The translations under genes and the position numbers were made by a program. From the NCBI RefSeq assembly GCF_002887595.1, contig NZ_PEBU01000001.1, positions 62,001 through 126,000 on the forward strand: a stretch of 64,000 nt of DNA, given 5' to 3'. Origin of the DNA: Bowmanella denitrificans (GTDB taxonomy: Bacteria; Pseudomonadota; Gammaproteobacteria; Enterobacterales; Alteromonadaceae). The notes beneath the pieces are model-generated. The model was not told the origin of the DNA, ran no database searches, and saw only the letters and a list, made by a program, of their open reading frames with translations. Every line of letters starts with the position of its first letter. The stretch's first letter is position 1. Below, in pieces: positions 7,365 to 44,399 of this stretch.

Positions 7365-8165
7365 CTACATACCTACGTTGGTGCTTTCGAAGATTTTATC
7401 TGCCGAGGCAGCCACAAAGCCTGTATATAACTTTCCATTGGGCATGGCGTAACGCTGGGCAAATTCGTAAAAACAGCTGGGTATCACCAGGCTCTTGTCA
7501 CTGAAACACACTTCCATTTTATCCGCCATGGTAGAAGATTGGGCCAGATGCACTTCAGGACCGCCCTTAATTTCGCCGCCGGAGGTGTTCAATTCAAAAC
7601 CAGCTTCTTTGAGCTTGTCATTCACTTCTGACAACAAAGTGTAGCGTTTCAGGTGATTCAGACTGACGGTAAAGTGATTGGCACGGAATCCCCAGGCCGA
7701 GACCCAGGCGGCATATTCTGACTCATTCAGCAGTGTTTGATACTCTTCACTGCTGACCTGCCAATGCGTGCCAGAGTATAAAAAGTTTTCCTTGTTCACC
7801 GCATCAGCAGGTACTGCGTCAACCATTTTACGGATTATGGCTTGAACTGGCGCAGAAAACTCCTCAACCAAGAGTTCGCTGATAAAGACTTTAGGCTTAG
7901 TGTCGTCAGCATGTTCGAAGTGTTTGGCTTTGAGCTTTTTCTGTTCAAAGTTGTACTGCCCCTTTTCTTCGTAACCCAATGCCAGGAAGTGCGCCGCCAG
8001 TTTTTCCAGACCGACTTTATCGATATTAAAGGTACGGAATGCGACATGGTCATTGATCAGTTCATCGCCATCACCCAGTAATTGGTGAACTTTTAAGGCG
8101 GAAGGGGTCATGGCAACGTAGTCTTGCCAAAGGTTTGCAAACAGGGTCTCAACGTTATTGTGCAT
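7365..8165 (-). CDS. DUF1338 family protein (2-oxoadipate dioxygenase/decarboxylase-like)
   Basis: 266-residue protein of the DUF1338/HglS-YdcJ group, non-haem iron enzymes that act on 2-oxo acids. Visible family traits are the N-terminal block NDHVAFRTFNID, with the likely metal-ligand His, the segment HFTVSLNHLKRY, and EVHLAQSS near residue 207. In Shewanella and Alteromonas-like genomes this gene commonly follows the ast arginine-degradation genes, as here. A side role in amino-acid catabolism is a reasonable inference, but the substrate in this lineage is not established. Confidence 0.8.
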   Translation of the reverse strand: MHNNVETLFANLWQDYVAMTPSALKVHQLLGDGDELINDHVAFRTFNIDKVGLEKLAAHFLALGYEEKGQYNFEQKKLKAKHFEHADDTKPKVFISELLVEEFSAPVQAIIRKMVDAVPADAVNKENFLYSGTHWQVSSEEYQTLLNESEYAAWVSAWGFRANHFTVSLNHLKRYTLLSEVNDKLKEAGFELNTSGGEIKGGPEVHLAQSSTMADKMEVCFSDKSLVIPSCFYEFAQRYAMPNGKLYTGFVAASADKIFESTNVGM

Positions 8166-34741: not shown

Positions 34742-35242
34742 ATGCCTAACAAAACACCATACATAAAACGCCGAAACGCATGTGAAGACCCGGTGATGGC
34801 TGGGTACAGCCTGCTGCAGGACTACGACACCAACGACCTTAAAGAAATCATGGTATGCAGCAGCGAAACCATTGTGCGCAACAAGCTAAACCCCGAGTCA
34901 GAACGCAACGTGCAAACCCTGATTGAAGCCGTAGCCCTGTCGGTAGCACTGAACGACGACAGGCAACTGGCCGCCTGGGCCGCCAAGCGCGGCAAAGCCC
35001 TGGTGAGCCTGCCAACCGATTGCATTTGCGAGGAAGAGTTAGCCGACCAACTGCTACTGGTAAGCGAAGTGATCGGCTGCCTGCATACCGAAATTCGCAA
35101 CGCCCGTGCTGATGGCGTAATCGACGCCAAAGAACGCCAGGCCATACGCGCCGCCGCCTTAAATGCGGTGCGTACCGTGCTGGAACTAGACGAAAGCATA
35201 GGCAGCCAGGTTAGAAAACTGCCCGTACAGAACAACAAGTAA
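34742..35242 (+). CDS. Phage regulatory CII family protein (CP76 type)
   Basis: 166 residues matching the 'phage regulatory protein CII' (CP76) group in length and position. It has an N-terminal segment ending ACEDPVMAGYSLLQDYD, a helical core with LIEAVALSVALNDDRQLAAWAAKRG, and a C-terminal helix (ARADGVIDAKERQAI). It starts two bases after the cro stop, adjacent to an operator palindrome. In P2/HP1-like phages this gene product helps the lysis-lysogeny choice. Confidence 0.7.
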   Translation: MPNKTPYIKRRNACEDPVMAGYSLLQDYDTNDLKEIMVCSSETIVRNKLNPESERNVQTLIEAVALSVALNDDRQLAAWAAKRGKALVSLPTDCICEEELADQLLLVSEVIGCLHTEIRNARADGVIDAKERQAIRAAALNAVRTVLELDESIGSQVRKLPVQNNK

Positions 35243-36189: not shown

Positions 36190-36909
36190 ATGCCAAACAC
36201 CGCCCACATAGCCCAAGCTGCGCCCGCCATCAACGTATGGCAGCAAGACGCCGTAGACTGGCTACGCATGCAGCCCAACCAATCGGTAAACCTGATTGTT
36301 ACGGATCCTGCCTACGAAAGCCTGGAAAAACACCGCGCCATAGGCACCACCACCCGCTTAAAACAAAGCGACGCCAGCAGCAACACCTGGTTTCCCACCT
36401 TTCCCAACGACAGGTACTTAGATCTGTTTATCGAAGCCTACCGGGTGCTGGAAAAAAACAGCCACATGTACGTGATGTGCGACCAGGAAACCGGCTTATT
36501 AATCAAACCCATCGCCGAACAAGCCGGCTTTAAATTCTGGAAATTCATCACTTGGGACAAGCTCAGCATTGGTATGGGCTACCACTACCGCAACCAAACC
36601 GAATGGGTCATGTTTCTGGAAAAAGGCAAGCGCCGCCTGCACGACCTAAGCATGCCCGACGTGCTACAGCACAAACGCATACACAAAGGCTACCCAACCG
36701 AAAAGCCCCCCGGCCTGTACGAAGACCTAATCGAACAATCCAGCGCCCCGGGTGAAGTAGTAGCCGACCTGTTCTTTGGCAGCGGCAACGGCTTGTTAGC
36801 CGCCGCCCGCCTTGGCCGCCACGCCATCGGCACCGACATAGCGCCCGCCGCGCACCAATTTCTGGCCAGCCAGGCCGACACCCAGGGCATTGCCCTAAAC
36901 CACTGTTAA
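36190..36909 (+). CDS. Beta-class DNA methyltransferase (DPAY motif)
   Basis: 239 residues. Motif IV (catalytic) is DPAY at 39-42 and precedes motif I FFGSGN (195-200), the order of beta-class N4-cytosine/N6-adenine methyltransferases. DPAY rather than DPPY is a common phage variant. No restriction partner is adjacent, so a solitary anti-restriction or regulatory methylase is likely. Target unknown. Confidence 0.85.
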   Translation: MPNTAHIAQAAPAINVWQQDAVDWLRMQPNQSVNLIVTDPAYESLEKHRAIGTTTRLKQSDASSNTWFPTFPNDRYLDLFIEAYRVLEKNSHMYVMCDQETGLLIKPIAEQAGFKFWKFITWDKLSIGMGYHYRNQTEWVMFLEKGKRRLHDLSMPDVLQHKRIHKGYPTEKPPGLYEDLIEQSSAPGEVVADLFFGSGNGLLAAARLGRHAIGTDIAPAAHQFLASQADTQGIALNHC

Positions 36910-36920
36910 GGACCACCGCC

Positions 36921-37751
36921 ATGAACGTATTTGACAAAATCTACATAGCCAGCGAATGCCGCCGCCTGCAACACGAAGGGTTTTATACCCTCGACACCGA
37001 AACCACCGGGCTGGATGAAAACGGCCGCATTGTAGAAGTGGCCGTTATCGCCCCCGACAACAGCCACTACAGCAGCCTGGTCAACCCAGGCATACCGATT
37101 CCGCCAGACGCCACCAACGTACACGGCATTACCGACGAGGCCGTAAAAAGCGAACCAGACTGGATCCAGGTAGGAACCGAACTGACCAACCTGTACGGGC
37201 TAACCAAAGCTAAGGAAAACATACCCAACCTGGTTATCTACAGCAGCGACTACGACCAGCAGCTAATGGAACAAAGCGGCGGCAACCCCTTTAAAGGCGC
37301 CAATGTGTTTTGTGCCATGCGCGCCTTTGCCATGTTCCACGGCGAAACAAAAGAAAACGGCCAGTACAAATGGCAAAAGCTCAGCCACGCCGCCGAACTT
37401 ACCGGCTTTGCTATGCCCGAAGGGCTAACCGCCCACCGCGCCTACGCCGACTGCCTGATGACCAAGCACCTAATCGAACACATGGCAGCCTGGCAATGGA
37501 AGCCAACAGAGCAAGAAGCCCGCCAGGCCATCGCCAACATCCACGACACCTACAGCGCCCACAGCCTGCTTGACGCCCTGCTACCCGACAGAGGCTACAC
37601 ACTGGAACTCACCATCAGAAAAAGCACCACAGGCACAAAGCAAGACTGCAACGTGATCTACAGCGGCCAGTGCTTTATGGCCCCCCACTGGCACCTGGCC
37701 GTACAAGCCGTTTACGAACGTCTTCTGGGCCAAAAAGCCCTTACCTATTAA
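36921..37751 (+). CDS. DnaQ-like 3'-5' exonuclease
   Basis: 276 residues. The N-terminal DEDD exonuclease domain has ExoI motif TLDTETTGL with the first Asp-Glu pair (about residues 18-26), ExoII-like IVIYSSDYDQQLME, and a final segment HRAYADCLMTKHLIEHM with the His and Asp expected of a DEDDh enzyme. The C-terminal 70 residues are unassigned. Probably acts in phage replication or host DNA degradation. Junction TAAGGACCACCGCCATG links it to the methylase gene. Confidence 0.85.
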   Translation: MNVFDKIYIASECRRLQHEGFYTLDTETTGLDENGRIVEVAVIAPDNSHYSSLVNPGIPIPPDATNVHGITDEAVKSEPDWIQVGTELTNLYGLTKAKENIPNLVIYSSDYDQQLMEQSGGNPFKGANVFCAMRAFAMFHGETKENGQYKWQKLSHAAELTGFAMPEGLTAHRAYADCLMTKHLIEHMAAWQWKPTEQEARQAIANIHDTYSAHSLLDALLPDRGYTLELTIRKSTTGTKQDCNVIYSGQCFMAPHWHLAVQAVYERLLGQKALTY

Positions 37752-37760
37752 GGAACCAAC

Positions 37761-38201
37761 ATGAACAACCAAAAAAGAAGAATTTATCTGGCATCAAGCT
37801 GGAGAAACGAAGACCAACAGGAAGTACTACACGTCTTGCGCGCGGCAGGTCACGAGGTTTACGACTTTAAAAACCCAACACCGGACAGTAACGGCTTTGC
37901 ATGGAGTGACATAGATCCTGATTGGCAAAACTGGTCTGCAGAGAGGTACAGAGAGTTGCTATTAAACCACCCAATAGCAGCGCTCGGCTTTCAAAGAGAC
38001 ATGCGCGCCATGCAGTGGGCAGACACCTGCGTGTTATTACTGCCATGTGGCCGCTCAGCTCACCTAGAAGCGGGCTGGTTCTGTGGCATGGGCAAGCGCT
38101 GCATCATCTTCACCCGCGACGGCGAAGAACCCGAGCTAATGGCACTGATGGCAACCCACATCGTTACATCAGTTTCAGAAATGCTAAGAGCACTCAAATA
38201 A
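37761..38201 (+). CDS. Nucleoside 2-deoxyribosyltransferase-like protein
   Basis: 146 residues. IYLASSWRN at the N-terminus, GHEVYDFKNP, and the C-terminal pair ADTCVLLLPCGRSAHLEAGW plus GKRCIIF are the pattern of the nucleoside 2-deoxyribosyltransferase-like fold, including the likely catalytic Glu in HLEAG. Possible roles are nucleotide salvage or signal-nucleotide turnover. It uses AGA/AGG and more AT-ending codons than its neighbours, which suggests a separate origin. Stop-SD-start junctions on both sides are the same as in flanking genes. Confidence 0.75.
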   Translation: MNNQKRRIYLASSWRNEDQQEVLHVLRAAGHEVYDFKNPTPDSNGFAWSDIDPDWQNWSAERYRELLLNHPIAALGFQRDMRAMQWADTCVLLLPCGRSAHLEAGWFCGMGKRCIIFTRDGEEPELMALMATHIVTSVSEMLRALK

Positions 38202-38210
38202 GGAACCACC

Positions 38211-39146
38211 ATGAACAACGCCACTGTCACCCAAGCCCTGGTCAGCCAATGCAACGAAGCGCTCAGCCTGGCCAAACGCCGCCATACAGGCCTTACACAA
38301 ATTACCGCCCAGGAAGTGCTGCACACCTGCAGTTGCATTGCCGACCACTGCGGCCTGATCGACCTAAACGCCCTGATACAAAAAGCCCTGATCCAACTGG
38401 AACAAGGCACGCCAAACACCATTCAGTACCAGGGCGAAAAGCCAACCAGAAGCTTAGCTGAACAAGCCCAACAGAACGTTGTGAGCGCTACAAACCTGGC
38501 CGACAAAATACGCGCCGAAGAAGGTGCCCCCATTAATTACTGGCCAGTACTTCACCTGGACCCACGCATAGCCAGCATGACACCGGAACAATTCGAAAAA
38601 GAATATTGCTGCGACTTTGCCAGTCAGCCAGACCAAACCGCAGTAGCGGTTGCCATGAAAAGCCGCCGCAATGGGCTGAATGCTATCAGGTCGCTGCAAA
38701 ACCTATACAGCATTCCATCTGCCGAAAACTTTAGCTACCTACAACGCAAATGCGACAATCTGAAACAGCAAGCCCAGGCCCAAGCCCAGGAAGCCCGCAC
38801 CCACCGCAACACCCTGCACCGCATCCACGAAGCGCTAGGCATTGAAGCACCGGATTATGAAGGCCCGCGCCCCGTTATCGCCCTGTTTGAAAAGCTCCTG
38901 CACATCAACAGCGACCTGGCCGGAAAAGACCTGAAAGACAACCTGGTCTGGCTCACCCGTGACGAAATAAACGAATGGGCCATGCTCAGCAGCCACGGCA
39001 TTACCGCCCAAAGCGCCATTGAAGCGCAGGAACTGGTGCTGGAACTTGCCAAAGCCTTGGGGGTGCCGCCCGTCAAACAAGCCCTTAGCGGCTTTATTGC
39101 GGGGTTGAAAGCCAACACAGCTCAACCAAAGGCAGCCAACGCATGA
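38211..39146 (+). CDS. Hypothetical phage early protein with coiled coil
   Basis: 311 residues, not recognised. An N-terminal helical part (about 1-90) is followed by a middle segment with ASMTPEQFEKEYCCDF, a strong coiled coil (about 180-215; LKQQAQAQAQEARTHRN) and a C-terminal helical part ending in a short tail. It overlaps the next small gene by 4 bp (ATGA), so it belongs to the same operon. It is likely one of the variable early genes of this phage type. Confidence 0.6.
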   Translation: MNNATVTQALVSQCNEALSLAKRRHTGLTQITAQEVLHTCSCIADHCGLIDLNALIQKALIQLEQGTPNTIQYQGEKPTRSLAEQAQQNVVSATNLADKIRAEEGAPINYWPVLHLDPRIASMTPEQFEKEYCCDFASQPDQTAVAVAMKSRRNGLNAIRSLQNLYSIPSAENFSYLQRKCDNLKQQAQAQAQEARTHRNTLHRIHEALGIEAPDYEGPRPVIALFEKLLHINSDLAGKDLKDNLVWLTRDEINEWAMLSSHGITAQSAIEAQELVLELAKALGVPPVKQALSGFIAGLKANTAQPKAANA

Positions 39147-39325
39147 ACCACACCGGTCTTTGGCCCCGCCAATGGGCGGCAAAAATTCGCGACAACACCG
39201 CCACCCTGCAGGACGTACCCACGCACCTGCAGGCCCTGGTGCGCGAACACCTAACCACCGCCGAAGACCACGAATTTAAAAACAAAAAATGGGCCAGCCA
39301 TAAGCGCAAATGGCCGCGTAAATAA
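39143..39325 (+). CDS. Small basic phage protein
   Basis: 60 residues, Trp- and Lys/Arg-rich at the C-terminus (NKKWASHKRKWPRK). It overlaps the preceding gene by four bases and ends 15 bp before the C5 methyltransferase start. It resembles the small basic proteins often found upstream of phage methylase genes; no function known. Confidence 0.55.
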   Translation: MNHTGLWPRQWAAKIRDNTATLQDVPTHLQALVREHLTTAEDHEFKNKKWASHKRKWPRK

Positions 39326-39340
39326 GTGGGAGCCAAAACC

Positions 39341-40336
39341 ATGACCGCCTACTACAACGAAATTGACCCAAAAGCAGCCAGTTGGTTGCGCGTACTTATC
39401 CAAGAAGGCCACATAGCACAAGGGGTAGTTGATGAAAGAAGCATTGAAGATGTCACACCAAATGACCTCAAAGGGTTCACCCAATGTCATTTCTTCGCCG
39501 GCGTCGGCGTCTGGTCATATGCACTGCGTAGAGCAGGCTGGCCAGATGACAAACCAGTCTGGACAGGATCATGCCCCTGCCAACCTTTCAGCACGGCAGG
39601 CAAAGGCGCAGGGTTTGCTGACGAGCGGCACCTGTGGCCAGCGTGGTTCCATCTTGTCAACCAGTGCCAGCCTCATGTCGTTATTGGTGAACAAGTTGCA
39701 AGCAAGGACGGCCTTACTTGGCTCGACCTTGTACAAACTGACATGGAAAACAAGGGTTACGCCGGCGGGGCGATCGATCTATGCGCTGCGGGCGTCGGTG
39801 CGCCGCACATCCGGCAAAGACTCTGGTTGGCCTACACCAAGGAGTTGTCATTCCGGACACACAACGGGGAATCCAAACAGGGCATTCAACAACAAGAGCC
39901 GATTAGAGGATGCAGTATTTTTAGCGGGTTGGCCGACATGTCGAGCGCAGGACGGCACCGGGGGCCAAATAGGCAAAACAATTACCGGCGGGTTAGCACT
40001 AAAACAAATGGTGCACTTTGCGGGTTGGCCGTCACCGAAAGCAGCAGAAGGAAAAAGTGGACAAAGGGTGCCGGACGGCAAACGGGGAATGAATGCATTG
40101 GACTTGATAAAGGGGATTTCGCAACCCGCCAGACTAACGGTCTCTGGGCAGATGCTGACTGGCTCTTCTGCAAGGATGGCAAGTGGCGGCCAGTTGAACC
40201 CGGCACATTCCCGTTGGTTGATGGGGATCCCGCCAGAGTGGGACGCCTGCGCGGTTACGGCAATGCAATCAATGCCGAAGCGGCCGCAGAGTTCATAAGC
40301 GCTTTCATGCTAGCAATGCAGGAGCAAGCAGCATGA
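39341..40336 (+). CDS. Phage C5-cytosine DNA methyltransferase
   Basis: 331 residues; the ATG at 39341 with GGGAG upstream matches the family start MTAYYNEIDP. Motif I is FFAGVG (51-56), catalytic motif IV PCQPFS (79-84, Cys80), motif VI GEQV (116-119, where ENV is usual), motif VIII RQRLW (158-162), and motif X region RGYGNAI (304-310). The stretch between about 165 and 280, where the target-recognition domain lies, is polar and poorly structured. The whole middle and end of the gene is read in a second frame as another long ORF. Expected to make 5-methylcytosine; target unknown. Confidence 0.88.
   Translation: MTAYYNEIDPKAASWLRVLIQEGHIAQGVVDERSIEDVTPNDLKGFTQCHFFAGVGVWSYALRRAGWPDDKPVWTGSCPCQPFSTAGKGAGFADERHLWPAWFHLVNQCQPHVVIGEQVASKDGLTWLDLVQTDMENKGYAGGAIDLCAAGVGAPHIRQRLWLAYTKELSFRTHNGESKQGIQQQEPIRGCSIFSGLADMSSAGRHRGPNRQNNYRRVSTKTNGALCGLAVTESSRRKKWTKGAGRQTGNECIGLDKGDFATRQTNGLWADADWLFCKDGKWRPVEPGTFPLVDGDPARVGRLRGYGNAINAEAAAEFISAFMLAMQEQAA
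39450..40298 (+). CDS. Overlapping ORF embedded in the C5 methyltransferase gene
   Basis: A +1-frame ORF lying wholly inside the methyltransferase gene, about 282 residues from the ATG at 39450 (the frame is open further upstream). Its sequence is not random: it begins MSHQMTSKG, then has SPASASG, NLSARQAKAQGLLTSGTCG, STLYKLTWKTRVTPAGRS, two GWPT blocks, LTVSGQMLTGSSARMASGG and QLNPAHSRWLMGIPPEWD. I recognise this as a recurring phage protein family annotated hypothetical, usually found with this methylase. Both frames therefore appear to be coding. Function unknown; expression unproven. Confidence 0.6.
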   Translation: MSHQMTSKGSPNVISSPASASGHMHCVEQAGQMTNQSGQDHAPANLSARQAKAQGLLTSGTCGQRGSILSTSASLMSLLVNKLQARTALLGSTLYKLTWKTRVTPAGRSIYALRASVRRTSGKDSGWPTPRSCHSGHTTGNPNRAFNNKSRLEDAVFLAGWPTCRAQDGTGGQIGKTITGGLALKQMVHFAGWPSPKAAEGKSGQRVPDGKRGMNALDLIKGISQPARLTVSGQMLTGSSARMASGGQLNPAHSRWLMGIPPEWDACAVTAMQSMPKRPQSS

Positions 40337-40572
40337 CCAACCCAACCCTAACCCAACCAGTAACCCAACAACACCTAAACGACATGGCAGCCCGCCTGCG
40401 CGCCATAGCCGAAGATCTGGAAGCCTGCGGGCCAGAAGAATGGCAAAACCTGGGCGACTGCCTGCGCGCCACCTGCAACAACATCGGCCACGACCTGGCA
40501 GAGGCTGTATGCCGCTGCCAGTTGGTACAGGTAAACACCCGCAAGCGCCGTTCGCTGCCCACGGATAACTGA
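40333..40572 (+). CDS. Small hypothetical phage protein
   Basis: 79 residues, mainly helical (LNDMAARLRAIAEDLEACG) with four Cys in the second half. ATGA overlap with the methyltransferase stop; 19 bp before gpA. Not recognised. Confidence 0.55.
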   Translation: MTNPTLTQPVTQQHLNDMAARLRAIAEDLEACGPEEWQNLGDCLRATCNNIGHDLAEAVCRCQLVQVNTRKRRSLPTDN

Positions 40573-40591
40573 CAACGGCCAACTGCCTAAC

Positions 40592-43465
40592 ATGCACACC
40601 ACCCACCCACTACCCACCCCATTTATCCCGGCCCTGCACCAACATCTGGCGCAGTGGCCGCGCTTTACCAGTTGGCAAACCCCAAAAGGCGAAGTCACCT
40701 ACGCCAAGCCCGATCTGTTTGCCAGCCAGGGCGAAAAAGCCCTATGGAAATTGGGCGACGACGCCGACCGCTACCACCGCGCCAAAGTACTACGCCCGCT
40801 GCCCACCACCGTCGGCAATGCCGTGGCCAGCGTGTACCGCGACCTGTTTAACACCAACAACAAACAAAAAGACCAGGGCCAGGCCCGCCGCCGCGCCAAC
40901 CACTTTTTAACCAGTATTTACAACCGCCACCTAAGCAAAAAGCTGGCCCGCCTGTGCCAGAACCCGCTGATTTTTAAACCCAGCGAAATGGTGCTGGAAG
41001 ACGAACTGGGCGACCTAACCTTCGGCCGCGCCCCCGAACTGCGCAGCCTGAACAAAGCCTTTAACGAAAAACGCAAAGACGCCCTGTGGTGCATGCTGGA
41101 AAGGGTCGACTGTGTAAACCAACAAGAAATTGTGGCCCACATCGTGCCGGTACTGCGCACCCAGGGCGAAGCCGAAGACGGCCAGCCAGACCGCCAGCAC
41201 CAAACCGACGCCCGCCACCTGCACGAATTCTGGCAGCGCAGCGACAACGAGCTACGCGACTACGCCTTTGACATGGTGCGGCTAACCTACCAGTTTATGC
41301 TGCGCCTGATGCGCGCCGGCGAAAACTACTACAGCAACGAAGCCCTAACCGTGCGCATTTACCGGGTGCTGTGCAGCATCCCCAACCAAATGGGTATTAC
41401 CGAAAAGTACCAGGCCATACCCTTTGAAGACCTCACCCAGGAGCACGCCGAAATCGGCCTGAACCGCCTGCTGTGCGAAAAGTGGTGGCTACGCAAACTG
41501 CGCACCGTACACCGCCAGAAATTTGAAGAAATCGCCATTGCTGCCGGGGTAGTACACAACGGCAAACAGCCCTATATCAGCAACGACACTTTCCGCTACT
41601 ACCAAAAGCGCGAAGCCGAAAACCGCAAAGTGCTGAATGACATGGTGGCCTACAACGAAGAAACCGGCGTTGAAGTGCCGCTAATGAGCCTGATAGAAAA
41701 GTCAGTCGCCAACCCCAAAATACGCCGCCACGAACTGATGGTACGCATACGCGGCAATGAAGAATTTGCCACCGCCAATGGCCACAGCGGTATGATGATC
41801 ACCCTAACCGCGCCCAGCCGTTACCACCCCACTGCCACCAAAAACCTGTTTGGCAAACGCTGTACCATTGCCAACCCCAAATACGACGGCGCCACCCCCA
41901 GGCAAACCAACGCCTACTTAAACCACATTTGGGCACTGATACGCAGCGCGCTCGACCGATTTGGCATTAAACCCTATGGCCTGCGCGTAGTCGAACCGCA
42001 CGAAGACGAAACCCCGCACCACCATTACCTGCTGTTTAGCAGGCCAGAAGACCAGGCCAAGATTGTTGAAGTATTTAAGCACTACGGCCTGCTGGTCGAC
42101 GGTAACGAAGCGGGCGCCAAGCGTAACCGTGTGCATGTAGTGTACATCGACCCCAAAAAAGGCAGCGCCACCGGCTACATAGCCAAATATATTTCCAAAA
42201 ATATCGACGGTTACCAGGCCGACGGCACCGAACTGGACGGCGACAACCTGGGCAACAGCGCCAGCGACGCCGCCAAACGGGTTACCGCCTGGCGCAAGTG
42301 CTGGGGTATTCGGGCCTTTCAGTTTGTTGGCAACCCATCGGTTACCGTGTGGCGCGAACTGCGCAAATATAACCGCGAAGAAGCTACGCCCTGGCGCGCC
42401 GCCATTAAAACCGAACAGCTTTACGCCAACCGCACCACCCTGTGCAATGCCCACGTAGCCACCTGGCTCGACAAAAGCGCCGCCCAACACGCCGAGCAGG
42501 AACGCAAAAACGGCCAGCAGTACAGCCTGCACAATGGCCACGTTGTTGTGTATACCAGCAGCACCAGCCAGGCCCGGCGCGAACGTGCCAAAGCCCAGTA
42601 CTTTGCCCCCTGCAATGCCCATGTACAGGCCTACCTGGCCACCCTGCGCCCCAAAGGCTGCCCCGACGAAACCATAGAAGCCGCCCGCATGTGGGCCGAC
42701 ACCGGCCACTGGGACAAATACATGCAAGCCATGGGCGGCGTATTCGTACGCCACGACCACCGCCCCGTGCAACTGCTCAGGCCCCAAGAGCCGGTGATCA
42801 ACCGTTACGGCGAAGCCCTGCCGCATAAAGCCATCGGCGTACAAAGCCACACCGCCGCCATTATTACCAGCGGCCAAAGCTGGTCCCTGCACCGCAAGGG
42901 CGAAAGCCCGCGCGCCAGGGGCGAAGCCCCGGTATTAGCCGCAGCGCAGCGCGCTGGGGCTGGCTCTCAGGCTGCGGCAAGCGTAGCGGCCGCTGCCCCT
43001 CGGAGTGCTGTCAATAACTGTACGCCGGGGCCTGCGCAGCCACCCGGCGAAACTGCCAGCGCGGTACCAAACCCGCAAGAATTTAACTACCCAGCGCCGC
43101 CACAAATGCCAGCGGCAGCTGCTGAAAAGCCAAAACCACCCGGTAACAGCTATCAATCCCCCTTCCCACCACCGCCACAAATGCCAGCGGCGGCCGCAAT
43201 CACCAGCAAAATCCCCATTGCTGACCAGCCCATTGCCGAATTCCTGCTCGCCCAAGGCATAAACCCAGCCCTGCTGCGCGGCTATATAGCCCGCCTGCGC
43301 GAAGGCAAAGACCTGGTATTAAACAAAAACGAAGGCTGGCGCCTGGTTACCCAACCCGACGGCAGCCTGCACCTGGTGCCGGTGCGCTACTACCTGCAGC
43401 GCGACCTAATGGAAGACTGGCCAGACGAAGACGATATCTACGACGAACTGGAGGACGTAGCGTGA
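40592..43465 (+). CDS. Phage replication initiator endonuclease gpA
   Basis: 957-residue HUH-type rolling-circle initiator of the P2 gpA family. The His cluster is HHHYLLF (476-482) and the paired tyrosines are Y529 and Y533 in YIAKYISK. It nicks the phage origin, which in P2 lies within this gene, and attaches to the 5' end. It is longer than P2 gpA because of a Pro/Ala-rich tail (about 775-885) holding two copies of PPQMPAAAA, then a conserved C-terminal patch (IARLREGKDLVLNKNEGWRL). Overlaps the next gene by 4 bp. Confidence 0.92.
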   Translation: MHTTHPLPTPFIPALHQHLAQWPRFTSWQTPKGEVTYAKPDLFASQGEKALWKLGDDADRYHRAKVLRPLPTTVGNAVASVYRDLFNTNNKQKDQGQARRRANHFLTSIYNRHLSKKLARLCQNPLIFKPSEMVLEDELGDLTFGRAPELRSLNKAFNEKRKDALWCMLERVDCVNQQEIVAHIVPVLRTQGEAEDGQPDRQHQTDARHLHEFWQRSDNELRDYAFDMVRLTYQFMLRLMRAGENYYSNEALTVRIYRVLCSIPNQMGITEKYQAIPFEDLTQEHAEIGLNRLLCEKWWLRKLRTVHRQKFEEIAIAAGVVHNGKQPYISNDTFRYYQKREAENRKVLNDMVAYNEETGVEVPLMSLIEKSVANPKIRRHELMVRIRGNEEFATANGHSGMMITLTAPSRYHPTATKNLFGKRCTIANPKYDGATPRQTNAYLNHIWALIRSALDRFGIKPYGLRVVEPHEDETPHHHYLLFSRPEDQAKIVEVFKHYGLLVDGNEAGAKRNRVHVVYIDPKKGSATGYIAKYISKNIDGYQADGTELDGDNLGNSASDAAKRVTAWRKCWGIRAFQFVGNPSVTVWRELRKYNREEATPWRAAIKTEQLYANRTTLCNAHVATWLDKSAAQHAEQERKNGQQYSLHNGHVVVYTSSTSQARRERAKAQYFAPCNAHVQAYLATLRPKGCPDETIEAARMWADTGHWDKYMQAMGGVFVRHDHRPVQLLRPQEPVINRYGEALPHKAIGVQSHTAAIITSGQSWSLHRKGESPRARGEAPVLAAAQRAGAGSQAAASVAAAAPRSAVNNCTPGPAQPPGETASAVPNPQEFNYPAPPQMPAAAAEKPKPPGNSYQSPFPPPPQMPAAAAITSKIPIADQPIAEFLLAQGINPALLRGYIARLREGKDLVLNKNEGWRLVTQPDGSLHLVPVRYYLQRDLMEDWPDEDDIYDELEDVA
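43054..43069 (+). repeat. Dispersed prophage repeat, copy D (core only)
   Basis: TGCCAGCGCGGTACCA in the Pro/Ala-rich tail of gpA; same core with two substitutions relative to copy A. Confidence 0.55.
43097..43191 (+). repeat. 20-bp direct repeat in the gpA tail
   Basis: CCGCCACAAATGCCAGCGGC occurs at 43097-43116 and again at 43172-43191, 75 bp apart and in frame, each coding for PPQMPAA. It marks a duplicated proline-rich linker. Confidence 0.9.
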
Positions 43466-43677
43466 ACAACGATTTAATGCGGAAAACCATAAAGGCCTGT
43501 TTAAGCCTTAAAGAATCCCAAGTCAGACAAAGGTTACAGGCAATTAACGAACTGTTAGAACAGCGCGAAAACTCTCTGCCTAACAACTGGTTCTGGCCAT
43601 CATATGCCAGATACGCCAAAAAAGGGCCAGGCAAAAACCGCAAAAAATGGCAACCAGTTAAAGGGGCCGTCAAATGA
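43462..43677 (+). CDS. Small basic phage protein
   Basis: 71 residues with an N-terminal helix (KTIKACLSLKESQVRQRLQA) and a Lys/Arg-rich C-terminus (KKGPGKNRKKWQP). Four-base overlaps with gpA and with the following methylase gene; no family recognised. Confidence 0.6.
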   Translation: MNNDLMRKTIKACLSLKESQVRQRLQAINELLEQRENSLPNNWFWPSYARYAKKGPGKNRKKWQPVKGAVK

Positions 43678-44399
43678 CCAAACGCTACTTAGGCGGCAAA
43701 GGCCAGCCCGGTGTTTACCACACCATCATTAACCAAATGCCGGTCCACGATCTGTATATCGAACCGTTCCTGGGCGGCGGCTCAGTCATGCGCTACAAGC
43801 GCCCCGCCAAACGCAGCATAGGCATGGACCTGTTTTTGCCAGCCCTGCAGCAATTCCAGCAGGCATATCTGCACGCACTCCCTGGGTGCGAATTACACTA
43901 CGGCAACGCCCTGGACTTTCTGCGTTACGGCAGCATTGCCGGGTTATGGGGCCACGAAACCCTAATCTACCTCGACCCACCCTACCCACACACCACCCGC
44001 ACCAGCAACGCCCGTTACGCCAACGAACTCACCAACGCCCAGCACAGCGCATTGCTAACCACCATTACAGATCTAGACTGCAACGTCATGATCAGCACCT
44101 ACCCAAACCCCCTGTACGCCGAACACCTAAAAGACTGGCGCCTGGTCGAACATACCAGCGTGGCCAGTAGCGGCCAGGTACGCGAAGAACACCTATACTG
44201 CAACTTTGCCGAGCCCACCTACCTGCACGACGACCGTTACCTGGGCGACAACAACGACAAACGCATAGACATAGCCCGCCGCATCACCCGTAACAAAAAA
44301 AAGCTGCTCGAATGGACGCCCGCAGAACGGGCCAGACTACTCAGGGAACTAGCCGAAAGCCTGCCAGAAGAGGAAAAACAAATACTGCAGTGCGGGTAA
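43674..44399 (+). CDS. D12-class DNA adenine methylase
   Basis: 241 residues, alpha-class like Dam: LGGKG at the N-terminus, SAM motif IEPFLGGGSVMRYK (about 28-41), catalytic DPPYPHTTR (about 101-109). The C-terminal tail is Glu-rich. Third methyltransferase of the prophage and of a different class from the other two. GATC is a common target for this class, but the recognition site cannot be read here. Last gene of the rightward early operon before a terminator. Confidence 0.88.
   Translation: MTKRYLGGKGQPGVYHTIINQMPVHDLYIEPFLGGGSVMRYKRPAKRSIGMDLFLPALQQFQQAYLHALPGCELHYGNALDFLRYGSIAGLWGHETLIYLDPPYPHTTRTSNARYANELTNAQHSALLTTITDLDCNVMISTYPNPLYAEHLKDWRLVEHTSVASSGQVREEHLYCNFAEPTYLHDDRYLGDNNDKRIDIARRITRNKKKLLEWTPAERARLLRELAESLPEEEKQILQCG

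Follow-up and report, generated by a model that had tools for sequence, protein, structure and literature searches.

The window, i.e. the whole stretch of 64,000 nucleotides of Bowmanella denitrificans DNA that was analysed, contains at positions 39341 to 40336 of its forward strand two long open reading frames that share the same bases. The outer one, hereafter A (ATG at 39341, end at 40336, 331 aa), encodes a C5 methyltransferase-like protein; the inner one, hereafter B (ATG at 39432, end at 40298, 288 aa), lies wholly within A on the same strand, in the +1 frame. From the translations of the open reading frames, a GTG at 39326 is a possible alternative upstream start of A, and a TTG at 39429 an alternative start of B. 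A previous sequence-only reading had described two long same-strand frames here, which is correct, with an overlap of 849 bp, which is not: the computed value is 867–870 nt. Six nucleotides upstream of the ATG of B there is a Shine-Dalgarno-like AAGGGG (39420 to 39425, forward strand), with a calculated anti-SD duplex energy of –7.7 kcal/mol.

Concerning the motifs of A, its translation displays PCQPFS (39575 to 39592, forward strand), which we take to be motif IV with the catalytic Cys, and HIRQRL (39806 to 39823, forward strand), presumably the motif VIII region, a location that also agrees with codon-position diversity. Motif X, RVGRLRGYGNAI, occurs near the end of A (40235 to 40270, forward strand), as indicated by translation, codon-position diversity and a motif scan. 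PCQPFS and the terminal motif X region were thus rightly pointed out in the sequence-only reading, whose claim that frame A holds all the C5 motifs does not stand: by translation and motif scan, A has motifs I–VIII and X, without motif IX. Between motifs VIII and X, residues 170–262 of A (39848 to 40126, forward strand) form a polar filler with nearly no consensus among A proteins, mostly modelled with pLDDT under 50, and with most variation at codon position 1 of A, i.e. the wobble position of B. This filler is the read-through of the recognition region of B, in line with the earlier suggestion that the polar stretch is a product of the overlap.

The layout of B is, in this order, a helix/hairpin region, a recognition region with GWPTP, GWPTC and GWPSP blocks (39825 to 40124, forward strand), motif IX, QLNPAHSRWLMGIPPEWD (40191 to 40244, forward strand), and a short tail. 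The recognition region was recognised by alignment and by the like region that occurs in frame between motifs VIII and IX in two monomeric relatives (L364 and L365), and motif IX by the motif scan and by a four-fold site variation of 0.15, the lowest among six regions. The patterned peptides described earlier for this frame (NLSARQAKAQGLLTSGTCG, SGQMLTGSSARM and QLNPAHSRWLMGIPPEWD) are all present, with two GWPT blocks and one GWPS. LNPAHSRWLMGIPPEWD (motif IX) followed by the short tail constitutes the end of B and occupies the DNA position just before motif X, so close that the first codons of motif X in A share DNA with the end of motif IX in B.

The surrounding region appears to be a P2-like prophage, an assignment made because a replication gene A homologue is present (40592–43465). 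The other genes noted are a CII-like gene (34742–35242), a DNA methyltransferase of unspecified type (36190–36909), an exonuclease (36921–37751), a nucleoside deoxyribosyltransferase-like gene (37761–38201) and a D12-class adenine methyltransferase (43674–44399). There are therefore three DNA methyltransferase loci within 8.3 kb (36190–44399), one of unspecified type, the cytosine pair and the D12-class adenine enzyme, in addition to the nucleoside deoxyribosyltransferase-like gene.

The two translations were searched separately against phage proteins, as the sequence-only reading had proposed. A belongs to PHROG 363 (E 4e-85) and B to PHROG 1008 (E 7.7e-39, residues 5–282 of 289). By tblastn over 50,697 phage records, A was found in 397 and B in 218. 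B had been considered a recurring phage family of hypothetical proteins; the recurrence is borne out by the 218 records, while "hypothetical" understates it, since PHROG 1008, like PHROG 363, is already labelled DNA methyltransferase. Both labels are silent on the coding of the two proteins by one gene in two frames and on the location of motif IX in B. A matched PF00145 with 45.5 bits (gathering cut-off 22) over residues 79–246 only, and TIGR00675 (dcm) with 31.1 bits over residues 9–173 only, well below the curated cut-off of 100.65. As motif IX, expected of PF00145 members in the same polypeptide, is absent from A and present in B, A was classified as a catalytic subunit rather than as a complete C5 enzyme. 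The structural model of A superposed on M.HhaI with Z 12.6 and rmsd 3.2 over 164 residues; residues 170–307 were mostly of pLDDT under 50, as were the motif IV loop (81–88) and residues 285–307, which include the start of motif X. B matched no Pfam or NCBIfam family at E 1 in profile searches. Its AlphaFold model when predicted alone was poor (pLDDT 57, pTM 0.28), Foldseek of this model against solved structures gave no match at E 0.001 or better, and the sequence and profile of B found nothing below E 0.9 in the PDB, with a single chance-level match at E 0.96. Because of the poor model and the absence of a Foldseek match, no fold is claimed for B.

The constraint acting on each frame was analysed in 162 loci, including two from the window's own genome. 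The viral contigs were scanned twice, once by A and once by B, with 80 loci each and some contigs in both sets. Exactly one A and one B frame occurred in 160 loci (159 viral ones and the window's own), and B was in the +1 frame of A in 160/160; the other two are a locus with a stop in A and an open B (L157) and another C5 gene of the window's genome (L002). Loci with B broken and A intact had been named beforehand, in the sequence-only reading, as evidence against dual coding; there was none among the 80 viral loci selected by A. Removal of duplicates and incomplete loci, followed by clustering at 90% nucleotide identity, left 107 non-redundant loci. When the synonymous codons of A were shuffled, an open B frame was expected in 0.8 of these loci, and it was observed in 107/107, with the proviso that they were drawn from loci already found to contain both frames. 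The same shuffling applied to the portion of B upstream of motif VIII gave 8.7 expected and 107/107 observed, and 12.0 expected for the remainder of B.

Upstream of the start of B, the mean pairwise diversity at positions 1/2/3 of the A codons was 0.19/0.12/0.57. The catalytic overlap gave 0.22/0.17/0.40, the recognition region 0.63/0.56/0.57, motif IX 0.23/0.13/0.16 and the surroundings of motif X 0.19/0.21/0.48. When the recognition region was aligned on B, the values at B positions 1, 2 and 3 were 0.56/0.51/0.64. Because the first position of an A codon coincides with the third of a B codon, the pattern tracks B where B bears the function: codon position 1 of A varies most in the two regions led by B, the recognition region and motif IX. 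Four-fold sites of A, which are free of the protein constraint of A, differed by 0.676 in the stretch coding for A only (a short yardstick of 26 codons before B), by 0.528 and 0.307 in the first and second halves of the catalytic overlap, by 0.381 in the recognition region, by 0.150 over motif IX and by 0.410 around motif X. When the four-fold difference was split at motif IV, it went from 0.589 to 0.314 in the 80 window-type loci and moved in the same direction in two further groups (0.644 to 0.506 in 53 loci, and 0.336 to 0.189 in 35 loci). In the control set of 24 ordinary C5 enzymes (20 come from the bacterial family of the window or from its genome), the two parts were equal (0.725 versus 0.713) and the B profile matched 0/24. 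A motif IX was found in frame in 20/24 controls by a loose pattern, 17 with the QxFP core, and in 4/24 there was none; three of those 20 matches are doubtful (RIMTLK twice, KMMGLP). The earlier claim that selection acts on the two frames is borne out by the open-frame shuffling, the four-fold sites and the control set; the locus is indeed dual-coding.

The nature of B was approached through its relatives. Of 84 loci fetched with B from two phages, one of Paenibacillus and the other Lactobacillus phage Lc-Nu, 80 contain one overlapping A/B pair with B in +1, and among 38 loci fetched with a further relative (L298) nested, split and monomeric forms are all present. In the split genes (L352, L353, L355, L359, L360, L362 and L372), a short A with motifs I–VIII overlaps a +1 frame with the recognition region, motif IX and motif X. 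In the monomers L364 and L365, a single frame carries motifs I–VIII, a WPTP recognition region, IX and X, and matches the B profile with E 2.5e-8 and 1.4e-12, respectively. Since relatives carry this segment nested, split or fused in one frame with motifs I–X, B is, as judged from sequence comparison, the segment of a C5 methyltransferase that comprises the recognition region and motif IX, encoded in the alternative frame. Among the earlier proposals that B could modify, inhibit or complete the methylase, the last one is thus favoured by the evidence, as the motif IX segment resides in B and is fused in relatives. A +1 frame matching the B profile persists over the catalytic region of the two monomers (1531–2049 in L364, 1507–1998 in L365); it may be vestigial, encode a product that has been kept, or echo A.

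The motif scan was extended, with simple regular expressions, to 376 distinct catalytic sequences. Motif X was in frame 0 and motif IX in +1 in 276 of them, and likewise in three more with an extra pattern match; both motifs were in +1 in seven and both in frame 0 in another seven, two were other cases (L283 and L473), motif X was not recognised in 44 (15 of which came from the Lc-Nu search) and motif IX was not recognised in 37. Sequences lacking a recognised IX or X were left out of the nested count, though a number of them have a frame with a B-profile match in +1. Motif IX was recognised in the +2 frame of none of the 376. One of the gathering searches used six peptide patterns, at least one of which (WPTPHRNC) lies inside the recognition region and so biases the sample towards B-like DNA; this search gave 67 newly seen distinct sequences, 53 nested and three monomeric. 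Two loci (L253 and L256) gave nothing in one scan of relatives because only the forward strand was scanned there.

It seems reasonable to interpret the locus as a two-polypeptide C5 methyltransferase encoded by one stretch of DNA, a reading to which we assign a probability of about 85%. A would provide the cofactor-binding and catalytic domain (motifs I–VIII) and motif X. B would be translated in the +1 frame from a ribosome-binding site of its own, located within A, and would contribute motif IX and the region for target recognition. Both polypeptides would assemble into one cytosine-5 methyltransferase, which, from what is common in phage biology, most likely would methylate the phage DNA against host restriction.

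Three other explanations were weighed. That B is a spurious frame with a conservation forced by A is very improbable. Part of the similarity in the N-terminus of B must indeed echo the conserved motif IV of A in the +1 frame, and there are streptococcal C5 genes with a +1 frame over the same motifs even though the enzyme has its own motif IX. A passive echo thus holds in part for the N-terminus of B. The spurious-frame explanation is contradicted by the 107 open B frames (0.8 expected) and by the high variability of A codon position 1 where B leads, and a spurious B is ruled out by the suppression of four-fold sites along B, strongest over motif IX, together with the 24 ordinary C5 enzymes that display neither such a drop nor a B match. 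A second possibility, that B works independently as a regulator, inhibitor or anti-restriction protein and shares nothing with the methyltransferase gene but the overlap, would fit with its lack of Pfam or NCBIfam family at E 1 and of a match to solved structures. Against it, B contains precisely what A is missing, monomers have the same segment in their single frame, placed between motifs VIII and X, and, except for the truncated L298, B was in no locus of the viral, bacterial and divergent sets without a recognised A catalytic region. We consider this possibility improbable, though less so than a spurious B.

A programmed +1 frameshift after motif VIII, giving a single fused A–B polypeptide and leaving B without a start of its own, is also unlikely, although a little less than the former two. 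The gene is colinear (motifs I–VIII, recognition region, IX, X), monomers such as L364 and L365 exist, and in a Paenibacillus copy (L283) A and B form one frame, apparently through a one-base indel. With a frameshift, however, the part of B upstream of motif VIII would not be translated, and yet it is kept open in all 107 loci (8.7 expected) and is constrained, strongly so in the second catalytic half (0.307); moreover, the fused product would lack motif X, which returns to frame 0. A +1 ATG occurs within A codons 25–46 in 106/107 loci (80.9 expected). For these reasons separate initiation of B is favoured over frameshifting. An ATG of B with an SD-like site is also common: a site of –6 kcal/mol or lower precedes B in 49/107 loci, versus 17% of the shuffles, and it is weaker than –6 in 58/107.

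Comparison of the two-polypeptide reading with known systems starts from M.HhaI and other monomeric C5 methyltransferases, which have all the motifs and the recognition domain in one polypeptide. The catalytic domain of A shares its fold with M.HhaI; the window differs in splitting motifs and recognition over two polypeptides. Such a split is exemplified by M.EcoHK31I, the small subunit of which is reportedly read from an overlapping, nested frame (Lee, Kam and Shaw, in 1995). According to the sections of PMC3404938 that deal with it, M.EcoHK31I (YGGCCR) is a two-polypeptide C5 methyltransferase with motifs I–VIII and X in the large polypeptide and motif IX in the small one, and its recognition domain is predicted in the large subunit. 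By translations and motif scan, the large polypeptide of the window likewise has I–VIII and X, with motif IX only in the small one, while its recognition region, unlike that of M.EcoHK31I, is in B. The best reading is then that the enzyme would work like M.EcoHK31I. It is not filed as a homologue, because of the recognition region in B; the likeness is to the published description. Among the BLAST matches listed in E. coli and plasmids, none was a named copy of M.EcoHK31I. The same sections describe M.AquI (CYCGRG) as two polypeptides jointly holding motifs I–X (PMC3404938). The split relatives, whose second frame holds the recognition region together with IX and X, resemble this description; the window departs from it in that motif X is back in frame A and B is nested over its whole length.

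Overlapping frames at C5 genes are also found in streptococci. The record of phage MM1, which we take to be the pneumococcal phage of an earlier overlap case, shows such an overlap. In the parts of PMC5601072 that concern them, the overlap of C5 frames in the 5093 group of Streptococcus thermophilus phages is termed striking, and earlier cases are mentioned from a pneumococcal phage and a streptococcal transposon, with Tn5252 in the reference list. Phages 5093 and MM1 resemble the window in having two frames overlapping at a C5 gene, and they are arranged differently, as the main frame has its own motif IX (RLQGFP) and the +1 frame gives no B-profile match; they were therefore discarded as prior examples of the window arrangement. 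Their +1 frame is a different one that runs over motifs IV–VIII, without motif IX (7571–8053 in the MM1 locus L503, 6212–6640 in the 5093 locus L504).

Dual coding of this length had been thought rare in the sequence-only reading, an opinion already qualified by the streptococcal overlaps in print (PMC5601072) and not maintained here, as the arrangement is common. Nested pairs occur in phages of Proteobacteria, Paenibacillus (L263, with both frames annotated), Lactobacillus (L266), Bacteroides (L390), Acinetobacter (L391) and a cyanobacterium (L394), thus also in phages of Firmicutes, Bacteroides and cyanobacteria. A Gordonia phage locus (L392), which matches only the first part of B and has no recognised motif IX, was left out of the nested count. 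In 89 further loci (80 contigs of bacterial genomes retrieved by the B profile, and nine phage or E. coli loci), a single A/B pair with B in +1 was present in 84; in three, A is interrupted by a stop and B is open (L199, L220 and L224), one, from an Arsenophonus endosymbiont, has both frames broken, and one has two tandem pairs. BLAST matches in E. coli involved 68 genomes, and the five loci opened were all in prophages. In the literature searched, where subscription journals were mostly outside reach, no report of a wide nested family was found. The kind of arrangement is already known from one characterised enzyme; its breadth and the switching between frames are the noteworthy part.

A tree of 44 catalytic domains, 18 of them nested forms that survived thinning at 60% identity and 26 others (12 of these labelled nested by B-profile evidence rather than by motifs), requires at least nine changes among the nested, split and monomeric forms, with 10 of the 41 inner branches starred. 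As the tree is unrooted, it gives no order of the forms. On balance, it is somewhat probable that coding in two frames is an architecture widespread among phage C5 methyltransferases, probably old and often missing from annotations, in which the recognition/motif IX segment floats between frames (nested, split or fused) through small indels while the order of the motifs in the DNA is fixed, so that the catalytic and recognition parts of one enzyme would be separate proteins made from the same bases.

If this is true, many database entries for "DNA cytosine methyltransferase" without motif IX would be half-enzymes with their second half hidden in the +1 frame. Annotation often retains only the catalytic half: at the locus of the five E. 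coli prophages opened, RefSeq gives one methyltransferase CDS, and 8/60 rows of the E. coli matches listed name two. Specificity prediction, catalogues of phage anti-restriction and cloning would fail when based on A alone, since the recognition part is encoded by B. As a putative function can be assigned to each of the two proteins and the arrangement comes nested, split or fused, this same-strand overlap of about 290 codons is a testable system for the origin and persistence of overlapping genes.

Two nested loci deserve a separate mention. In L223 (2898–4802) there are two A/B pairs in tandem, the second far more divergent, with B in +1 in both. In L257 (103–2130), motif IV of the nested A frame carries an in-frame insertion of about 365 residues, with no Rfam match at E 1 and with ends that, by their signature, are presumably intein-like. 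The insertion also interrupts B at about residue 50 and so constitutes a natural test of the need for the first 50 residues of B.
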